A DNA stretch of 20,341 nt from a virus. Numbering within the stretch: the first letter of the stretch is position 1; the number at the start of each line of letters is the position of its first letter. A program made the position numbers and the translations under genes. Positions 6,766 to 17,400 of the stretch are shown here, piece by piece. The notes beneath the pieces are model-generated. The model had not been told where the DNA came from and ran no database searches. It saw only the letters and a list, made by a program, of their open reading frames with translations. The DNA is taken from the IMG/VR virus record IMGVR_UViG_3300042544_001159, positions 1-20,341 of that record. One strand, written 5' to 3'.

Positions 6766-7447
6766 AACTTTATTTCGTTGCTCGGGAGTCGGTTCATTAA
6801 TGACCGAGCCTAAATTAAAAGCCGACAAAGACGCTGGGAATCTTTCAGAAACAGCAAAAACATTTGTTGAAGATAAATGGTTGTTTGAACAATTCGGTTT
6901 TGCCGAATCAATCAAAAATCAATACATGGACAAAGGTATAGAATGCGAACAAAATTCAATGGATTTAGTTAGTCAAGTAGTTGAAGGCGGCTTTCGTGCA
7001 AGATACAATACTAAATTGCAAAACGATTATGTAATTGGCACTCCGGATATAGTATTACAAGATTGTGTTGAAGATATTAAGACATCATGGAATTTAAAGA
7101 CTTTCTTTAACGCTGAATTATCAAAGATGTATTATTGTCAAGCCCAATGTTATATGTGGCTTACCGGTAAAGAAAAGTATAAATTGATTTACGCATTGGT
7201 ACCAACGCCTCAAAGCATGGTATTAAATGAATGCGAAAAGTTGGTTTATAAATATGGTAAAAACTACGATAATGAAGATTACATCAAAGAATGCCAACAA
7301 ATCCAACGTAACAATGATTTGATTAAGGAATTACCAATTGAAAAAAGAGTTAAGGTATTTGCATTCGATTATGATCCAGCATACATTGAAACATTAAAAT
7401 TAAAAATCGAGAGAGCTCGTGAATATTACAACACATTAAAATTATAA
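6755..7447 (+). CDS. YqaJ/lambda-exonuclease-like PD-(D/E)XK nuclease
   Basis: 230 residues. Such enzymes digest one strand from double-stranded ends to give the annealing protein its substrate. Visible motifs: the opening FRCSGVGSLM (7-16), typical of the YqaJ family; MDKGIECEQNSMDL (58-71) with the motif I glutamate; GTPDIV (95-100) with D98; EDIKTSW (106-112) giving the D-x-K catalytic pair D107/K109; and YYCQAQCYMWLTG (126-138), the conserved Gln motif. All key residues appear intact. It overlaps the annealase gene and is followed after one base by a GIY-YIG protein. DNA-end processing in the cytoplasm is a confident family-level call; exact polarity is not knowable here. Confidence 0.8.
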   Translation: MENKTLFRCSGVGSLMTEPKLKADKDAGNLSETAKTFVEDKWLFEQFGFAESIKNQYMDKGIECEQNSMDLVSQVVEGGFRARYNTKLQNDYVIGTPDIVLQDCVEDIKTSWNLKTFFNAELSKMYYCQAQCYMWLTGKEKYKLIYALVPTPQSMVLNECEKLVYKYGKNYDNEDYIKECQQIQRNNDLIKELPIEKRVKVFAFDYDPAYIETLKLKIERAREYYNTLKL

Positions 7448-7448
7448 A

Positions 7449-7754
7449 ATGGGAAATTTAAAAAATAAACCACCCACTTTTGGCAATGTGTTGTTATGTG
7501 CTGTAATTAGTAAGCAAGAAATACCTAAAATACCCGCTCAGGTGAGATATAGAAACTTTGTTTATATGCTTACACACAATGAGGAAATAATATATGTAGG
7601 CAGAAGCACAAATTTAAGACATAGGTTATCTGGGTGGAAAAATTGTAGGGATTTTGACAAAGTGTATTTATGTGAATATTTAACACATACAGAAAATTGT
7701 CAATCAGAAAGGTTCTATATCAATCATTTCAAACCTGCATACAATTGTAGGTAG
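7449..7754 (+). CDS. GIY-YIG domain nuclease
   Basis: 101 residues. GIY-YIG enzymes cut DNA with a single metal ion and occur in homing endonucleases, UvrC and junction-cleaving proteins. Motif A is FVYML (37-41) for GIY and IYVGRS (48-53) for YIG; R57/R59 supply the conserved arginine; the metal-binding glutamate is E87 in SERFYI; the end FKPAYN (94-99) matches the KPxxN motif. There is no extra DNA-binding domain, so it is not a typical homing endonuclease. Its place after the exonuclease suggests a role in recombination or nicking host DNA, by inference. A short hairpin spans the stop codon (7748-7769). Confidence 0.8.
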   Translation: MGNLKNKPPTFGNVLLCAVISKQEIPKIPAQVRYRNFVYMLTHNEEIIYVGRSTNLRHRLSGWKNCRDFDKVYLCEYLTHTENCQSERFYINHFKPAYNCR

Positions 7755-7817
7755 TTATTATAGTACCTAACAAAAGTTTGGCGCATTAAAAAAATTATAA
7801 AAATTAAAACTTTAAAA

Positions 7818-8183
7818 ATGGAAAACAACATAACAGAACACATAAAACGATTAAGTGCTTATGAGTACTCTTTAATAAATACGATTTGCGACTACTCGAA
7901 TATTAAGATTAGTGATTTACTAGGTAAAGTGCGTAAAAATGAATATGTAAATGCCCGAAAAATTGCAAGTTATTTATTTAAGAAAAATGGCTACACGAAT
8001 GAAAGAATAGGCACTTTAATAAGCCTCATTCCAAAAGACCATACAACGATTATTTACAATGTTAAAAAGGCAAATGAACATTACAATTTAGAACCACATT
8101 TTAAAACGATTGTTGATAGTGTAGTAAGCAATTTGAACAAGTCCGATTTCACATCTTTAAAACATAAGCCATGCAAAAAATAA
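7818..8183 (+). CDS. DnaA domain IV-like DNA-binding protein
   Basis: 121 residues. Domain IV of DnaA binds DnaA boxes in double-stranded origins. Here ARKIASYLF (46-54), a following NERIGTLI (61-68) and KDHTTIIYNVKK (73-84) match the R-x-I-A-x-Y-L, IG and D-H-(S/T)-T-V-x-x-A signature of that domain. The ATPase (AAA+) module is absent, so it cannot melt DNA alone; it may mark the phage origin, recruit host proteins, or compete with host DnaA. Its 3' end overlaps by 13 bases the triple-HTH protein, so the two DNA binders are likely co-expressed. The domain match is good; the role is inferred. Confidence 0.7.
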   Translation: MENNITEHIKRLSAYEYSLINTICDYSNIKISDLLGKVRKNEYVNARKIASYLFKKNGYTNERIGTLISLIPKDHTTIIYNVKKANEHYNLEPHFKTIVDSVVSNLNKSDFTSLKHKPCKK

Positions 8184-10011: not shown

Positions 10012-10045
10012 TCGTTTTGTTGATGCCAACGAAATGATAATTAAG

Positions 10046-10068
10046 CCACCTATTAAGGTGGTTTTTTT
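10046..10068 (+). terminator. Intrinsic terminator closing the early block
   Basis: CCACCT (10046-10051) pairs with AGGTGG (10056-10061) around ATTA, followed by seven Ts (10062-10068). Confidence 0.9.
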
Positions 10069-10302
10069 ATTTATATTGATAATCAATTCTTTATATATAT
10101 TTATATTCCACATGAATAAAAAAGTATGCAAAGTCTCTCTTATAGGCATAGTTAAAGTAATAAATTTTTTTTTTTTCAAATTGTCAAAAAAAAACCTGCA
10201 TCCTGCATGTTTTTGGCTTATAGTCAATGTTTATAATACTTTCGCTCATATATAAATTTTTTTACATGTAGAATATAAATATATGTTTATTATTAAAATA
10301 AA
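10069..10302. other. Noncoding A/T-rich region, possible origin or regulatory zone
   Basis: No credible gene; the only plus-strand frame here has hydrophobic, low-complexity coding with poly-Phe and is rejected. It holds 12 consecutive Ts (10165-10176), nine consecutive As (10186-10194) and a hairpin AAAAAC-C-TGCA / TGCA-T-GTTTTT (10190-10214). It also has a weak promoter-like pair TTTG 10212-10215 / TACTTTCG 10237-10244 (one mismatch, 21-bp spacer) and an 8-base palindrome TACATGTA (10263-10270). Together with the replication genes on both sides, this is the best candidate in the window for a replication origin, by inference. Confidence 0.4.
10190..10214 (-). terminator. Hairpin with T-run on the minus strand
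   Basis: Ten stem pairs with one mismatch and a 3-base loop. On the minus strand the stem is followed by nine Ts (complement of 10186-10194), a better terminator than on the plus strand (five Ts within the stem). It could stop a leftward RNA starting to its right, although no minus-strand gene is seen. Confidence 0.45.
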
Positions 10303-10334
10303 TTAGGAAGTATGAATATAATGTTGTAATATTG
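10303..10334 (+). promoter_or_regulatory. Promoter P3 before the replication block
   Basis: TTAG (10303-10306), 20 bp, TAATATTG (10327-10334). Each box deviates by one base from TTTG / TAnnTTTG, but the sequence AAATAAATTAGGAAGTATGAA aligns closely with P2's AAATAAATTTGGTAGTACAAA, so it belongs to the same phage promoter family. The predicted transcript starts near 10338-10341. Confidence 0.6.
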
Positions 10335-10345
10335 CTTTTAAATTA

Positions 10346-10434
10346 AAGATGTCGCATATCTTATAATAAAAATTTTTTAGTCCTTTAGAATTTAGCATGA
10401 TGCGACCTTGTTATTTTCTTAAAGGACTTTTTTT
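10346..10434 (+). promoter_or_regulatory. Leader RNA: putative kissing-loop attenuator
   Basis: Hairpin I: AAGAT (10346-10350) and ATCTT (10358-10362) enclose a 7-base loop GTCGCAT. Hairpin II: AGTCCTTTAGAA (10379-10390) pairs with TTC-T-TAAAGGACT (10416-10428, one bulged T), followed by a T-run to 10434, an intrinsic terminator. The loop of hairpin II contains ATGCGAC (10400-10406), perfectly complementary to all seven loop bases of hairpin I. Hairpin II also buries AAAGGA (10421-10426), the only Shine-Dalgarno-like sequence before ATG 10439. Promoter P3 would place both hairpins in the 5' leader. Pairings are read directly; control by attenuation or ribosome access is inferred. Confidence 0.6.
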
Positions 10435-10438
10435 ATTT

Positions 10439-10708
10439 ATGAATAAATTATGTCAAAGTTGTAAATCTGAAAATATAGAAACTATTTTTAGTGATGGTGT
10501 TATGAGCTACTTTTGTAAAGATTGCAATTCTTATAATGGTTCAGCTCACAATTATATTAGTACAGGATTAAAATTTAGATTTGGAAAATATAAAGGTAAT
10601 TTAATTGAATTATCCGAAGATGCAAATTACCTTAGTTGGCTGCTTGAAGGTAATAAAGTAGATAAAGGATATAGAATAGCAGTCATTAACACATTAAACC
10701 AAAGATAA
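10439..10708 (+). CDS. Zinc-ribbon protein with ExoX C-terminal-like domain
   Basis: 89 residues from ATG 10439. The frame extends in register to ATG 10397, but that start lies within the terminator hairpin, so the later ATG is chosen. N-terminal zinc ribbon: CQSC (5-8) and CKDC (26-29). C-terminal half: FRFGKYKGN (46-54), then DANYLSWLLEG (61-71), which match the FGKYKGxxxxxxxxxYLxW pattern of the exodeoxyribonuclease X C-terminal/DUF3820 family, a small nucleic-acid-binding module without nuclease residues. It directly precedes the primase-helicase by two bases, so a DNA-binding accessory in replication is likely by context. Expression appears controlled by the structured leader upstream. 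Confidence 0.75.
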   Translation: MNKLCQSCKSENIETIFSDGVMSYFCKDCNSYNGSAHNYISTGLKFRFGKYKGNLIELSEDANYLSWLLEGNKVDKGYRIAVINTLNQR

Positions 10709-10710
10709 TA

Positions 10711-13104
10711 ATGCCACAAATAACAATATACAAATCATTTGGAGATGTATCCGCTGGATATAATAGAGATATTTATTTTATCTTAGATAGGATAAAAAGA
10801 GGTAGTTCAAAGATACTTATTGAACAAATACGTAATTCTAATTTAGAGGATCAAAATAGCCTTAAAAAGAAACTTCCTGCCATTCTATTCAGTGGTACAT
10901 TTAGACAGCGTAATGATGCCTCTATTATCGAACATAGTGGTTTAATTTGTATTGACTTTGATAAGTTTGAAACCAATGATTTAATAAAGGAATTTAGAGT
11001 CCAATTAATAGAAGATGCCTACACATTTAGTGTGTTTACTTCACCTAGTGGTAATGGGCTTAAATGCCTTGTTAAAATACCAACTGAAATAGATAATCAT
11101 AAATTATACTTTGAGTCATTAAAAGAAAAATATAATTCAAAATACTTTGATATTTCATGTTCAAATATTAGCAGAATATGTTTTGAAAGTTATGATCCTG
11201 AAATACACATTAACGAAGATAGTTTGATATGGTCTGAGAAAAGCGAACCCGATATTTACGAAGTTGAAACAATTAATGTCAACATTCCTATAAGGTCGGA
11301 AAATAGAATAGTAGATAATCTTCGTAAATGGTTTACTAAATTCTCAATGAATGAAGGAGAGAGGAATAATAACCTATTCAAGTTAGCCATTGCATTCAAT
11401 GATTTTGGAGTTCCAAAAAACGTTTGCGAAAGCGTTTGTATGGAATATGTAAGGGAGGATTTTCCACTTCGTGAAATACAAACTATTATAAAAAGCGCTT
11501 ATCAACGTACAGGTAGTTTTGGGACTAAATTCTTTGAAGATACTTTCACTAAAGAAAAGATTGAAAAAAACATTAGAAGTGGTAAAGATATTAAAGCAAT
11601 TAAAAAACAATTCCCTGACTTGCAGGAAAATGAGATTGAGAACGCAATTGAAAACGTAAAGGAAAATATTAGTATAACTGATTTTTGGGAGTATTCAAGT
11701 AAGGGCAATATTCAAATTTTACAGCATAAATTTAAGTACTTCTTACAGGAACGTAATTTCTTTAAATTTTATCCGAGTAGTACAAATGGATTTATATTTA
11801 TTAAGATATTTGAAAACTTATTAGAGGAAACTAACAAGGATATGATTAAGGATTATACCCTTAATTATTTAGAGTTCAAAGAAGATATAGGAATGAAACC
11901 ATTTAATTATATGGCTGAAAAAACTAAATATTTTTCATTTGATTTCTTATCATTTTTAGAAACTAAAGAGGTCAAATTACTTGAAGATGATATTGATAAT
12001 TGCTATTTATATTTTAAAAACAAAATAGTATCAATCTCAAAGAATGAGATTAAGCAAATTGATTACATTGACTCCGAAGGTTATGTTTGGAAAAATCAAA
12101 TCATTGATAGGGATTTTGAGTATATTAAAATAGAATCATGCGTATTTGGTAAGTTTTTAAATTACATAGCTGGCGAAGATGTAAGTCGTTATAATTCTTT
12201 AAAATCGGTTATTGGGTATCTATTGCACTCATTCAAAACAAGTGCGAATAATAAGGCTATAATTCTTAACGATGAAACTATTTCAGATACTCCGAATGGT
12301 GGGAGTGGTAAGGGCTTATTTTGGAATGCTTTAAGTCAAATGAAAAAATTAAATAGTTTAGATGGAAAATCATTTAGCTTTGGGGACCAGTTTAAGTATC
12401 AAACAATTTCTGCAGATTGTCAAATATTAGTGTTCGACGATGTAAAGAAAAACTTTGACTTTGAGAGCTTATTTAGTCTTATAACAGAAGGTATAACTTT
12501 AGAGCGTAAAGGTCAACTGGCTATTAAATTACCCGTTAAGAAAAGCCCGAAAATATTAATTACAACTAACTACACGGTAGGTGGCGTTGGTGGATCATTC
12601 GAGCGTCGAAAGTTTGAAGTTGAGTTTAGTAGTTTCTTTAATGCAAACAACACACCTTTAAAAGTATTTAATCATTTATTATTTGACGAATGGAGCGAAA
12701 TAGAATGGAAAAAATTTGATAATTTCATGATTGAATGTGTGCAATATTATTTAGCAAATGGATTGGTTCAGCATGAGTTTAAGAATCTTGAAGTACGTAA
12801 ATTTATTAATAAAACATCGAGTGAATTTTATGAGTTTGTTAATGAAACCGAACATTTACAAACGGGTGTAAGAATTATAAACCAAGTATTTTTTGAGGAA
12901 TTCTTAAACGATTATCCTGACTTTAGAAAGTGGTTAACTAGAAAAAAATTAAAGCAATGGATTGATGTTTATTGTCAATTTAAAGGATATGAAGTAGAAC
13001 ATGGCAAATGTCATTTAGGAGTTTACTTTGAGATACTAGATAAAACGAAACCGAAAAAAAACGATATAACAACCGAACCAATTGATGATGGATTAATATT
13101 TTAA
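10711..13104 (+). CDS. BT4734-like primase fused to SF3-type helicase
   Basis: 797 residues, the largest gene here. N-terminal region (about 1-180) resembles the BT4734/VirE-N type archaeo-eukaryotic primase domain: SGLICIDFDKF (76-86) with the metal-binding D82/D84 motif, FTSPSGNGLKCLVKI (109-123) for the S-x-G-x-G-x-K/H nucleotide site, and SNISRICF (151-158). A middle helical linker (about 190-330) leads to a D5-like helicase: Walker A NGGSGKG (529-535, K534), Walker B ILVFDDV (572-578), sensor KILITTNY (614-621) and arginine finger ERRKFEVEF (631-639). Primer synthesis plus unwinding at the phage fork is the expected role. The next gene starts two bases after the stop. Confidence 0.85.
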   Translation: MPQITIYKSFGDVSAGYNRDIYFILDRIKRGSSKILIEQIRNSNLEDQNSLKKKLPAILFSGTFRQRNDASIIEHSGLICIDFDKFETNDLIKEFRVQLIEDAYTFSVFTSPSGNGLKCLVKIPTEIDNHKLYFESLKEKYNSKYFDISCSNISRICFESYDPEIHINEDSLIWSEKSEPDIYEVETINVNIPIRSENRIVDNLRKWFTKFSMNEGERNNNLFKLAIAFNDFGVPKNVCESVCMEYVREDFPLREIQTIIKSAYQRTGSFGTKFFEDTFTKEKIEKNIRSGKDIKAIKKQFPDLQENEIENAIENVKENISITDFWEYSSKGNIQILQHKFKYFLQERNFFKFYPSSTNGFIFIKIFENLLEETNKDMIKDYTLNYLEFKEDIGMKPFNYMAEKTKYFSFDFLSFLETKEVKLLEDDIDNCYLYFKNKIVSISKNEIKQIDYIDSEGYVWKNQIIDRDFEYIKIESCVFGKFLNYIAGEDVSRYNSLKSVIGYLLHSFKTSANNKAIILNDETISDTPNGGSGKGLFWNALSQMKKLNSLDGKSFSFGDQFKYQTISADCQILVFDDVKKNFDFESLFSLITEGITLERKGQLAIKLPVKKSPKILITTNYTVGGVGGSFERRKFEVEFSSFFNANNTPLKVFNHLLFDEWSEIEWKKFDNFMIECVQYYLANGLVQHEFKNLEVRKFINKTSSEFYEFVNETEHLQTGVRIINQVFFEEFLNDYPDFRKWLTRKKLKQWIDVYCQFKGYEVEHGKCHLGVYFEILDKTKPKKNDITTEPIDDGLIF

Positions 13105-15998: not shown

Positions 15999-16210
15999 CA
16001 ATGATAGTAAGCGAACAAGACAAAGAATTATTACTTGAAAATAGTAAGATAATTTTAGACATTACAACAGGATATAAGCCTAACGAATTGAAGGTATTAT
16101 ATGATTTGCATAATCGAATTTACAGCACTAATAAGACTCCAAACGGTTGCGGTTCGTGCATTAGGAGTGTAATCGTATCATTACAAAAAGCATTGTCTAA
16201 AGTTATATGA
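15995..16210 (+). CDS. Small protein with CGSC motif, unknown
   Basis: 71 residues, overlapping the gene before and the one after (ATGA at each end). The order ELKVLYDLHNRIYSTNKTPNGCGSCIRSVIVSLQKAL, that is a helix, a Cys-Gly-Ser-Cys turn, then a basic helix, is a recurring short protein in Bacteroidota phages. The CxxC pair could bind metal or be redox active, but two cysteines alone do not make a zinc ribbon unless it dimerises. It sits right before the methyltransferase and may be its partner by position only. Confidence 0.65.
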   Translation: MTMIVSEQDKELLLENSKIILDITTGYKPNELKVLYDLHNRIYSTNKTPNGCGSCIRSVIVSLQKALSKVI

Positions 16211-17400
16211 AAATAAAATTAAACCCGAACAATCCACGGATAATTAAGGATGATAAATTTAAAAAGTTAGTTCAATCAATAAAGAACTTTCCAGAAATGC
16301 TTGACATCAGACCTATCGTAGTTAATAAAGAAGGTATTATTTTAGGTGGCAATATGCGATTTAAAGCATGTATAGAAGCTGGCATTAAAGAACCGCCTCA
16401 TGTAGTAGTTGACTTAACAGAAGACCAGCAAAAGGAGTTTCTTATTAAAGATAATGTAAGCGGTGGAGAATGGGATTGGGATGCGCTTGCAAGTGAATGG
16501 GATGTTGAACAATTAGATAGCTGGGGATTGGATATGCCTAACGTTGAGGTTGAAGAATTAGAAGCCGAAGAAGATAATTTTGATGCACCCGAAGGCGGGA
16601 TTGAAACGGATATTGTTATAGGTGATTTATTTGAGATTGGTGAGCATAGATTGCTTTGTGGGGATAGTACAGATAGCGATGCAGTTTTAAGGTTAATGAA
16701 TGAATGTAAAGCTAATTTATTAATGACTTCACCGCCTTATTGGGTTGGCAAAGATTACGAAATACAAGAAAGTGAAGAAGAAATAGAAAAATTTATTATT
16801 GATATAGCAAACACTTCCTTATTGGCTATGCACGATAACTATTCAAGAATTATTATTAATACAGGTACAGGAAGGGCTACATCTTTAAAGAGTGAAAAAG
16901 ATACAAGGGTTATTTTATTACTTGATAAATGGGTAAATATTTTACTAGCTAATGAATGGAAATTGAGATATATAAGGCATTGGATAAAAGGTGGTGGTGC
17001 ATCAACACCAAGAAGACCCATTGATGATGTGGTTTATTGTGGTATAGAGTATTTATTAACATTTTACAAAGCAGGAAGTAAAAGTAGAGGGCAAAATAGA
17101 ATTAGTGAATCTTGGGTACAACAAAGCGATTGGACAGATATAAAAGGAGATAAGCAAGAAAATAAAGCAGGATTTCCTGTAGAATTACCTGCTAGATATA
17201 TCAAACTTTATTCATTAGAAGATGAAATAGTTTATGAACCATTTACAGGCAATGGAACTACAATAGTAGCTGCACATCAACTTAAGCGCAAATGTTACGG
17301 AATGGAATTAGACCCGAAATATTGTCAAGTAATAATTGATAGAATGAAAAAACTAGACCCGACATTGGTAATTAAACGAAATGGAATTGAAATAAAATAA
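16207..17400 (+). CDS. ParB-domain/DNA methyltransferase fusion
   Basis: 397 residues. N-terminal ParB/Srx-like domain (about 1-90): LNPNNPRIIKDDKF, IRPIVVNKEGIILGGNMRFKACIEAG with the GGxxR box (47-51). A helical and acidic linker (90-135) joins a class beta methyltransferase: TSPPYW (174-179, motif IV) precedes EPFTGNGTT (344-352, SAM-binding motif I), the order of beta enzymes. TSPPYW is the form typical of N4-cytosine methylases, whereas N6-adenine enzymes usually have DPPY. Likely role: modifying phage DNA to evade host restriction, or hypomethylation-linked control of packaging just upstream of terminase. No restriction partner is seen. Confidence 0.85.
   Translation: MKIKLNPNNPRIIKDDKFKKLVQSIKNFPEMLDIRPIVVNKEGIILGGNMRFKACIEAGIKEPPHVVVDLTEDQQKEFLIKDNVSGGEWDWDALASEWDVEQLDSWGLDMPNVEVEELEAEEDNFDAPEGGIETDIVIGDLFEIGEHRLLCGDSTDSDAVLRLMNECKANLLMTSPPYWVGKDYEIQESEEEIEKFIIDIANTSLLAMHDNYSRIIINTGTGRATSLKSEKDTRVILLLDKWVNILLANEWKLRYIRHWIKGGGASTPRRPIDDVVYCGIEYLLTFYKAGSKSRGQNRISESWVQQSDWTDIKGDKQENKAGFPVELPARYIKLYSLEDEIVYEPFTGNGTTIVAAHQLKRKCYGMELDPKYCQVIIDRMKKLDPTLVIKRNGIEIK

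Follow-up and report, generated by a model that had tools for sequence, protein, structure and literature searches.

Covarying kissing-loop leader RNAs, probably attenuators, ahead of replication and homing endonuclease genes in Bacteroidota phages

The leader and its genes in the window

The DNA analysed here (the window, 20,341 nucleotides) is the whole of the IMG/VR virus contig IMGVR_UViG_3300042544_001159, whose best relatives are phages of Flavobacterium and other Bacteroidota. It contains an operon with a replication gene, a primase/helicase, which is preceded by a leader of two hairpins. Leader and operon consist of the following parts:

10327-10334, plus strand: putative Bacteroidota-type -7 box TAATATTG, with one mismatch to TAnnTTTG
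10346-10362, plus strand: hairpin I, a 5-bp stem AAGAT/ATCTT found in sequence and folding, which covaries in relatives
10351-10357, plus strand: S1, the kissing loop GTCGCAT, an exact complement of S2 with covariation in relatives
10363-10378, plus strand: AT-rich linker between hairpins I and II
10379-10428, plus strand: hairpin II, predicted intrinsic terminator stem-loop (12 pairs, one bulge; -16.9 kcal/mol)
10400-10406, plus strand: S2, the sequence ATGCGAC in the apical loop of hairpin II, complementary to S1
10428-10434, plus strand: terminator T-run, read from the sequence
10439-10708, plus strand: first operon gene, beginning with the ATG at 10439 (89 aa, zinc-ribbon-like/ExoX-C-like)
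10711-13104, plus strand: replication gene downstream of the leader, a primase/helicase (BT4734-like N, PriCT-1)

An earlier sequence-only reading had described this region as a kissing-loop attenuator. The two complementary loops lie exactly where it had placed them, and the terminator of 12 pairs with one bulge and a T-run that it had proposed is seen at 10379-10434. Hairpin II is built from an outer stem, AGTCCTTTA/TAAAGGACT, and an inner stem around S2; with its GC-containing stem and U-run between promoter and start codon, it has, as far as can be read from sequence, the anatomy of an intrinsic terminator. The promoter that had been assumed upstream is recognizable in part: the -7 box is present with its one mismatch, but no -33 element is visible upstream of it. 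The RNA is expected to start near 10340, downstream of this box. For the 89-aa gene product, both Pfam matches (zinc-ribbon-like and ExoX-C-like) are below the curated cut-off.

The leader of the window folds with a minimum free energy of -21.4 kcal/mol (z -3.7; none of the shuffles was as stable), and its centroid structure contains both hairpins. In the ViennaRNA fold, hairpin I gains a G-U and a U-A pair that reduce its loop to a triloop; the open 7-base loop S1 would therefore belong to the docked form and not to the minimum of the isolated hairpin. GTCGCAT has just two sites in the window, S1 and, as its complement, S2, and at least two matches are also obtained in 31 of 100 shuffles. For the pairing of S1 and S2 in the window alone, we obtained p = 0.047 (400 shuffles), in a test whose leader types were chosen partly by eye. 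By itself, the match in the window is marginal; it is the comparison with relatives that makes it convincing.

Two further features lie upstream. An AT-rich stretch ahead of the leader has an inverted repeat on either side, with arms of about 28 bases (10091-10118, left arm approximate, and 10257-10284) that are 89-93% matched in relatives; the repeat may point to an origin or to a divergent promoter region. The upstream operon ends in a terminator-like hairpin of its own, a strong one at 10043-10064, about 280 bases ahead of the leader.

Leaders in related phages and before other genes

Near-full-length relatives of the primase, with 90-98% identity, were found on seven contigs. The leader of the window (type A) recurs unchanged in L003, and because this is the sole relative of the same type, the loop pair of the window shows no covariation within its type. 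L002 and L004 are 93-97% identical in the flanks and carry, at about 10300-10430, a wholly different leader made of the same parts, with GTGAGAA in the loop of hairpin I and TTCTCAC in the terminator loop; the leader is exchanged as a block between phages with approximately 95% identical flanks, and its design is kept. L007, L006 and L008 have the loops GTGGAAG/CTTCCAC, and in the latter two the small 89-aa gene is absent and the leader directly precedes the primase ATG.

Phages with primases of 41-63% identity present the elements in the same order, starting with a -7 box of the form TAnnTTTG, followed no more than about 30 bases on by S1 and then by the terminator, which has S2 in its loop, and the start codon; the -7 box is present at the matching place in nearly all relatives. 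Dozens of further leader versions occur in more distant phages, with different letters in the matched loops. The loop pairs include GTAGTGC/GCACTAC (L014), GGTTCGAC/GTCGAACC (L012), AGTACCATT/AATGGTACT (L038-L041, L043 and L044), AGTCCCATT/AATGGGACT (L042), GATGCAG/CTGCATC (L045) and ATGGAAACC/GGTTTCCAT (L036). In L010, L012 and L013/L017, the promoter and the start of the downstream gene are held in common while the entire leader differs. The element is also found in cultured phages: the Flavobacterium phages elemoF (GTGGAGG/CCTCCAC) and elemoA (TGAGAGC/GCTCTCA) have the same promoter ahead of it, and in Cellulophaga phage phi19:1 (GTACGAC/GTCGTAC) it heads a gene group that includes the primase/helicase. 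It thus spans different phage families.

Within the primase group, some leaders (L065, L090 and L097) show a terminator-like hairpin but no clear matching S1, and a profile scan of genome contigs returned one primase relative, in which no leader was recognised. Other pairings are conceivable at some loci. In two primase leaders without a clear S1 (L090:2460-2695 and L091:2600-2835), the terminator loop TTGAATGAC matches GTCATTCAA behind the T-run, possibly a different switch. At L065:4860-5000 and L066:4860-5000, GCAGG and a CCTGC directly before the T-run could form a terminator, with which another long stem competes.

The element had been described as the leader of a replication operon, and it does precede the primase operon; it also precedes homing endonuclease genes. 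L003 carries, at 7342-8075, a GIY-YIG endonuclease gene with a kissing-loop leader of its own, adjoining a small terminase-like gene, in a stretch for which blast found no counterpart in the window; in L091, a leader stands before a NUMOD4-HNH-like gene (both endonuclease genes are named from their translations). A scan of the relatives of both endonuclease genes gave 34 hits on the plus strand and one on the minus strand, and nearly all plus-strand hits end directly before the endonuclease start codon. The architecture lies directly upstream of 32 of 133 genes and was found 0 times in ten shuffled sets, a control that addresses the whole architecture and not kissing given a terminator. The homing endonuclease genes with a leader are freestanding and of both the GIY-YIG and the HNH type. 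Because the replication leader of L014 resembles the HNH leaders L194 and L197-L199, leaders appear to move between replication and endonuclease genes. Other replication-type genes seem to carry the element too (L157, L149, L245, L250, L251 and L254).

The loop-loop helix and the geometry of the fold

The sequence-only reading had staked the loop-loop pairing on covariation in homologous leaders, and there the 7-base pairs do covary strongly. We counted covariation with the pseudoknotted structure on six family alignments, using slid and shuffled controls. The kissing helix has standard pairs in 100% of the compared cells of all six alignments, and 14 of its pairs are changed on both sides (3, 1, 2, 1, 2 and 5 per alignment); when the partners are slid by 1-3 columns, pairing of the whole structure falls to 20-55%. 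In the relatives, stem I shows double changes in four of its four pairs; covariation extends to all the stems around the loops (I, inner and outer), where G-U pairs account for part of it. Some of these changes stand out against otherwise very similar leaders, as in family M, where L067 has a paired change from G-C to C-G, and L077 differs from L062 by a paired one-base deletion. A paired insertion in the loop-loop helix sets L013 apart from L017. Given alignment A10 and no structure, RNAalifold returned both hairpins.

An approach less biased towards matching loops is the covariance model R1, which was trained on just the nested stems of seven leaders and is blind to the kissing pairs. Outside its training set, it found ten distinct leader versions at E<0.001 in 100 loci (one duplicate excluded), and S1 and S2 match perfectly over 7 bases in all ten. 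Among them are four versions that the scanner had missed (L154, L146, L157 and L174), for which the match was read by eye. Against 395 Bacteroidota genomes, R1 gave no match, a result that shows little, as 11 candidates were scored per genome. The window shuffle test is likewise among the less biased tests; loop p-values over the 35 leader clusters are circular, since these hits had been chosen for S1/S2, and we do not use them as evidence. The leaders thus present a kissing loop, that is, two hairpin loops with covarying Watson-Crick complementarity, and we regard this structure as well supported.

Its geometry is regular. In the 35 leader clusters, the median distance from the -7 box to the start of S1 is 11 bases, and 6-26 bases separate the 3' arm of the terminator from the start codon; the distance from the end of S1 to the 5' arm of the terminator is 21 bases in the window and mostly 21-25 in relatives. 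Such regular spacing fits a compact fold docked in cis. Between the outer and the inner stem of hairpin II, 26 of 58 leaders have an internal loop of either the AGUA/GAA (loop E) type or the UGAN/NGAN tandem-GA type, where about 2.8 would be expected from shuffled junctions. AGUA and GAA are invariant in alignment A9 while the stems vary, and with respect to a conserved core, this internal loop, in one version or the other, is the sole feature that recurs. The window is a divergent member in which the internal loop is not clear and the -7 box is weak. The suggestion that the leader might sense a ligand finds little to build on here, as we see no conserved pocket, just this motif in two versions, and their interchangeability argues against one.

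For the idea that loop pairing competes directly with the terminator stem, we find no support. Across the 35 leader clusters, pairing of the leader with the arms of the terminator is not in excess of chance (combined p of 0.97 for the 5' arm and 1.0 for the 3' arm), so we reject a classical antiterminator switch. In predicted folds of growing window transcripts, the S1 and S2 regions form a long-range pairing at a length of 70-75 bases, when the terminator is still incomplete; the program used cannot represent docking and terminator together.

Regulation in cis and competing explanations

We think it probable that the element is a cis-acting kissing-loop attenuator and that such structured leaders make up a new class of RNA in Bacteroidota phages. 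A host-type promoter would start the RNA, the first 20 or so bases of which would fold into hairpin I, and the intrinsic terminator hairpin would be made some 21-25 bases later. Its apical loop S2, of 6-9 bases, would dock on S1 by exact Watson-Crick pairing, and in many members the AGUA/GAA or tandem-GA internal loop of hairpin II may help the docked fold. The docked fold would then set the share of RNA polymerases that stop at the U-run or read into the replication or homing endonuclease gene. Attenuation as such is what we infer from this arrangement: that the U-run hairpin terminates, and that docking changes its efficiency, which could be in either direction. We lean slightly towards docking that pre-organises the terminator, with low expression as the default; relief, if any, might come from a phage or host protein, from the speed of RNA polymerase, or from an RNA in trans. 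Pairing S1 to the loop and not to an arm is no textbook switch, as docking leaves the terminator stem intact. Since docking and terminator stem can coexist, docking may also not regulate termination at all.

The same pairing could act between molecules, such that short terminated leader RNAs accumulate and bind other nascent leaders through S1 or S2, and expression would drop as phage copy number or the number of co-infecting phages of the same type rises, in the manner of plasmid copy-control RNAs or P4-type RNA immunity. The contacts of 6-9-base loops do resemble antisense kissing complexes, S1 is made well before S2 and would leave time for a partner in trans, leader types are swapped as blocks between near-identical phages, and control would fall on replication genes and endonucleases. 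Even so, we consider such feedback unlikely: local concentration favours docking in cis, no separate antisense gene was found, and loops of other types often match about equally well, although in a cross-type matrix that is too crude for specificity, as AU-rich regions yield many long weak pairings. Nor do we see selection for distinct specificities, because S1/S2 do not consistently diverge faster than the rest of the leader (their divergence is above that of the rest in A2 and A4 and below it in A3 and A5). A wider version, in which terminated leader RNAs acting in trans through matched loops form a phage-wide dosage and compatibility system, appears more doubtful still. If it existed, a phage or endonuclease element would limit its own replication or expression by copy number, like and unlike leaders would be told apart in co-infection, and cassette exchange would change the type. 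Prophage immunity is unlikely, as 29 of 30 relative contigs, which may be incomplete, have no tyrosine integrase (PF00589; one match in 30); these relatives look virulent.

Docking might instead sequester or protect the 5' end and the start region and thereby affect mRNA stability or translation initiation, with the U-run hairpin being a weak terminator or none. Shine-Dalgarno sequences are rarely used in Bacteroidota, which speaks against this, as does the T-rich tail behind the stem in the members found (partly a matter of selection, since the scanner required a tail). The AAAGGA that the earlier reading saw buried in the 3' arm is there in the window but is not kept in relatives, whose 3' arms (CCTACAATGG, TCTCACTTCGGG, GGTTTGAATT and others) retain, by eye, no Shine-Dalgarno-like stretch; we reject a hidden Shine-Dalgarno sequence on this ground. 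In favour of such a role, the start codon follows just 6-26 bases behind the hairpin, and in T4, control of homing endonuclease genes is known to involve 5' hairpins in which the ribosome binding site is masked (PMC2988022). On balance, we hold it to be quite unlikely. A role of S1 and S2 in DNA, as inverted repressor sites downstream of the promoter that support DNA looping and whose letters track the repressor, is very improbable. It would suit the position of S1, which is usual for an operator, and the loop pairs, which are exact in nearly all cases and contain very few G-U pairs (L010 is an exception), but it does not account for an S2 that is invariably in inverted orientation within a U-run hairpin loop, for stems I, inner and outer that covary as RNA helices with G-U pairs, or for the one-sided strand orientation. 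Finally, a chance match of two loops, for which the p-value of about 0.05 in the window alone might speak, is rejected on the comparative data and has a negligible probability, given its recurrence in about 35 leader clusters with compensatory changes and its presence in all ten leader versions from the model blind to kissing pairs.

Attenuators are familiar, and so are kissing loops; to our knowledge, no recurrent class has been described in which the apical loop of a terminator docks onto a 5' hairpin. The sequence-only reading had likewise named no described RNA of this arrangement, and our searches agree with it. Rfam 15 has no match at gathering score in the window (the best sub-threshold match is far below it) and none to the leaders in 16 loci, where it recognised only a tRNA; we found no such element in the open-access literature, and the main texts of two structured-RNA surveys do not name it.

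Several known systems share individual traits with the phage leader. The attenuators of pT181, pIP501 and related plasmid rep genes also combine hairpins with an intrinsic terminator before a replication gene and are decided by loop contacts; there, an antisense RNA comes from the other strand and an antiterminator pairs with a terminator arm, whereas the phage leader has both loops on one RNA and no arm pairing was found. In ColE1, the apical loops of RNA I and RNA II, about 7 bases long, are complementary throughout and have letters that differ between relatives, but their kissing is intermolecular and controls a replication primer, not a terminator. The rep leader pseudoknots of the IncI-alpha/IncB type share the pairing in cis of a 5' hairpin loop before a replication gene; they act on repZ translation and are countered by an antisense RNA, and the pairing hairpin has no terminator. 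P4 CI RNA and c4 RNA are processed trans RNAs of prophages that resemble the phage leader in RNA pairing within a phage replication-operon leader and in premature termination. The leaders studied here differ from them in having no Rfam match, c4 RNA (RF01695) included, and in the near absence of integrase genes (PF00589, 30 contigs). The T4 genes mobE, segB and I-TevI are, like the endonuclease genes described above, preceded by 5' RNA structure; theirs is a single hairpin over the ribosome binding site, with no terminator and no kissing partner (PMC2988022), while the 3' arms of our leaders have, by eye, no common AGGA-like stretch that could be a conserved ribosome binding site in the stem.

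If the cis-acting attenuator is the right reading, a class of regulatory RNA that has gone undescribed and seems to be common precedes replication operons and freestanding homing endonuclease genes of Bacteroidota phages, and docking of a terminator by its apical loop would be a design that is, as far as we know, undescribed for attenuators. The Flavobacterium elemo phages and Cellulophaga phi19:1 offer cultured systems for studying what loop docking does to intrinsic termination and by what means phages and selfish endonucleases meter replication genes, and the freely changing loop letters could supply orthogonal regulatory parts.

A minor observation concerns a gene elsewhere in the window, at 16207-17400, which, judging by its translation, seems to combine a ParB-like part at the N-terminus with one that resembles DNA methyltransferases.
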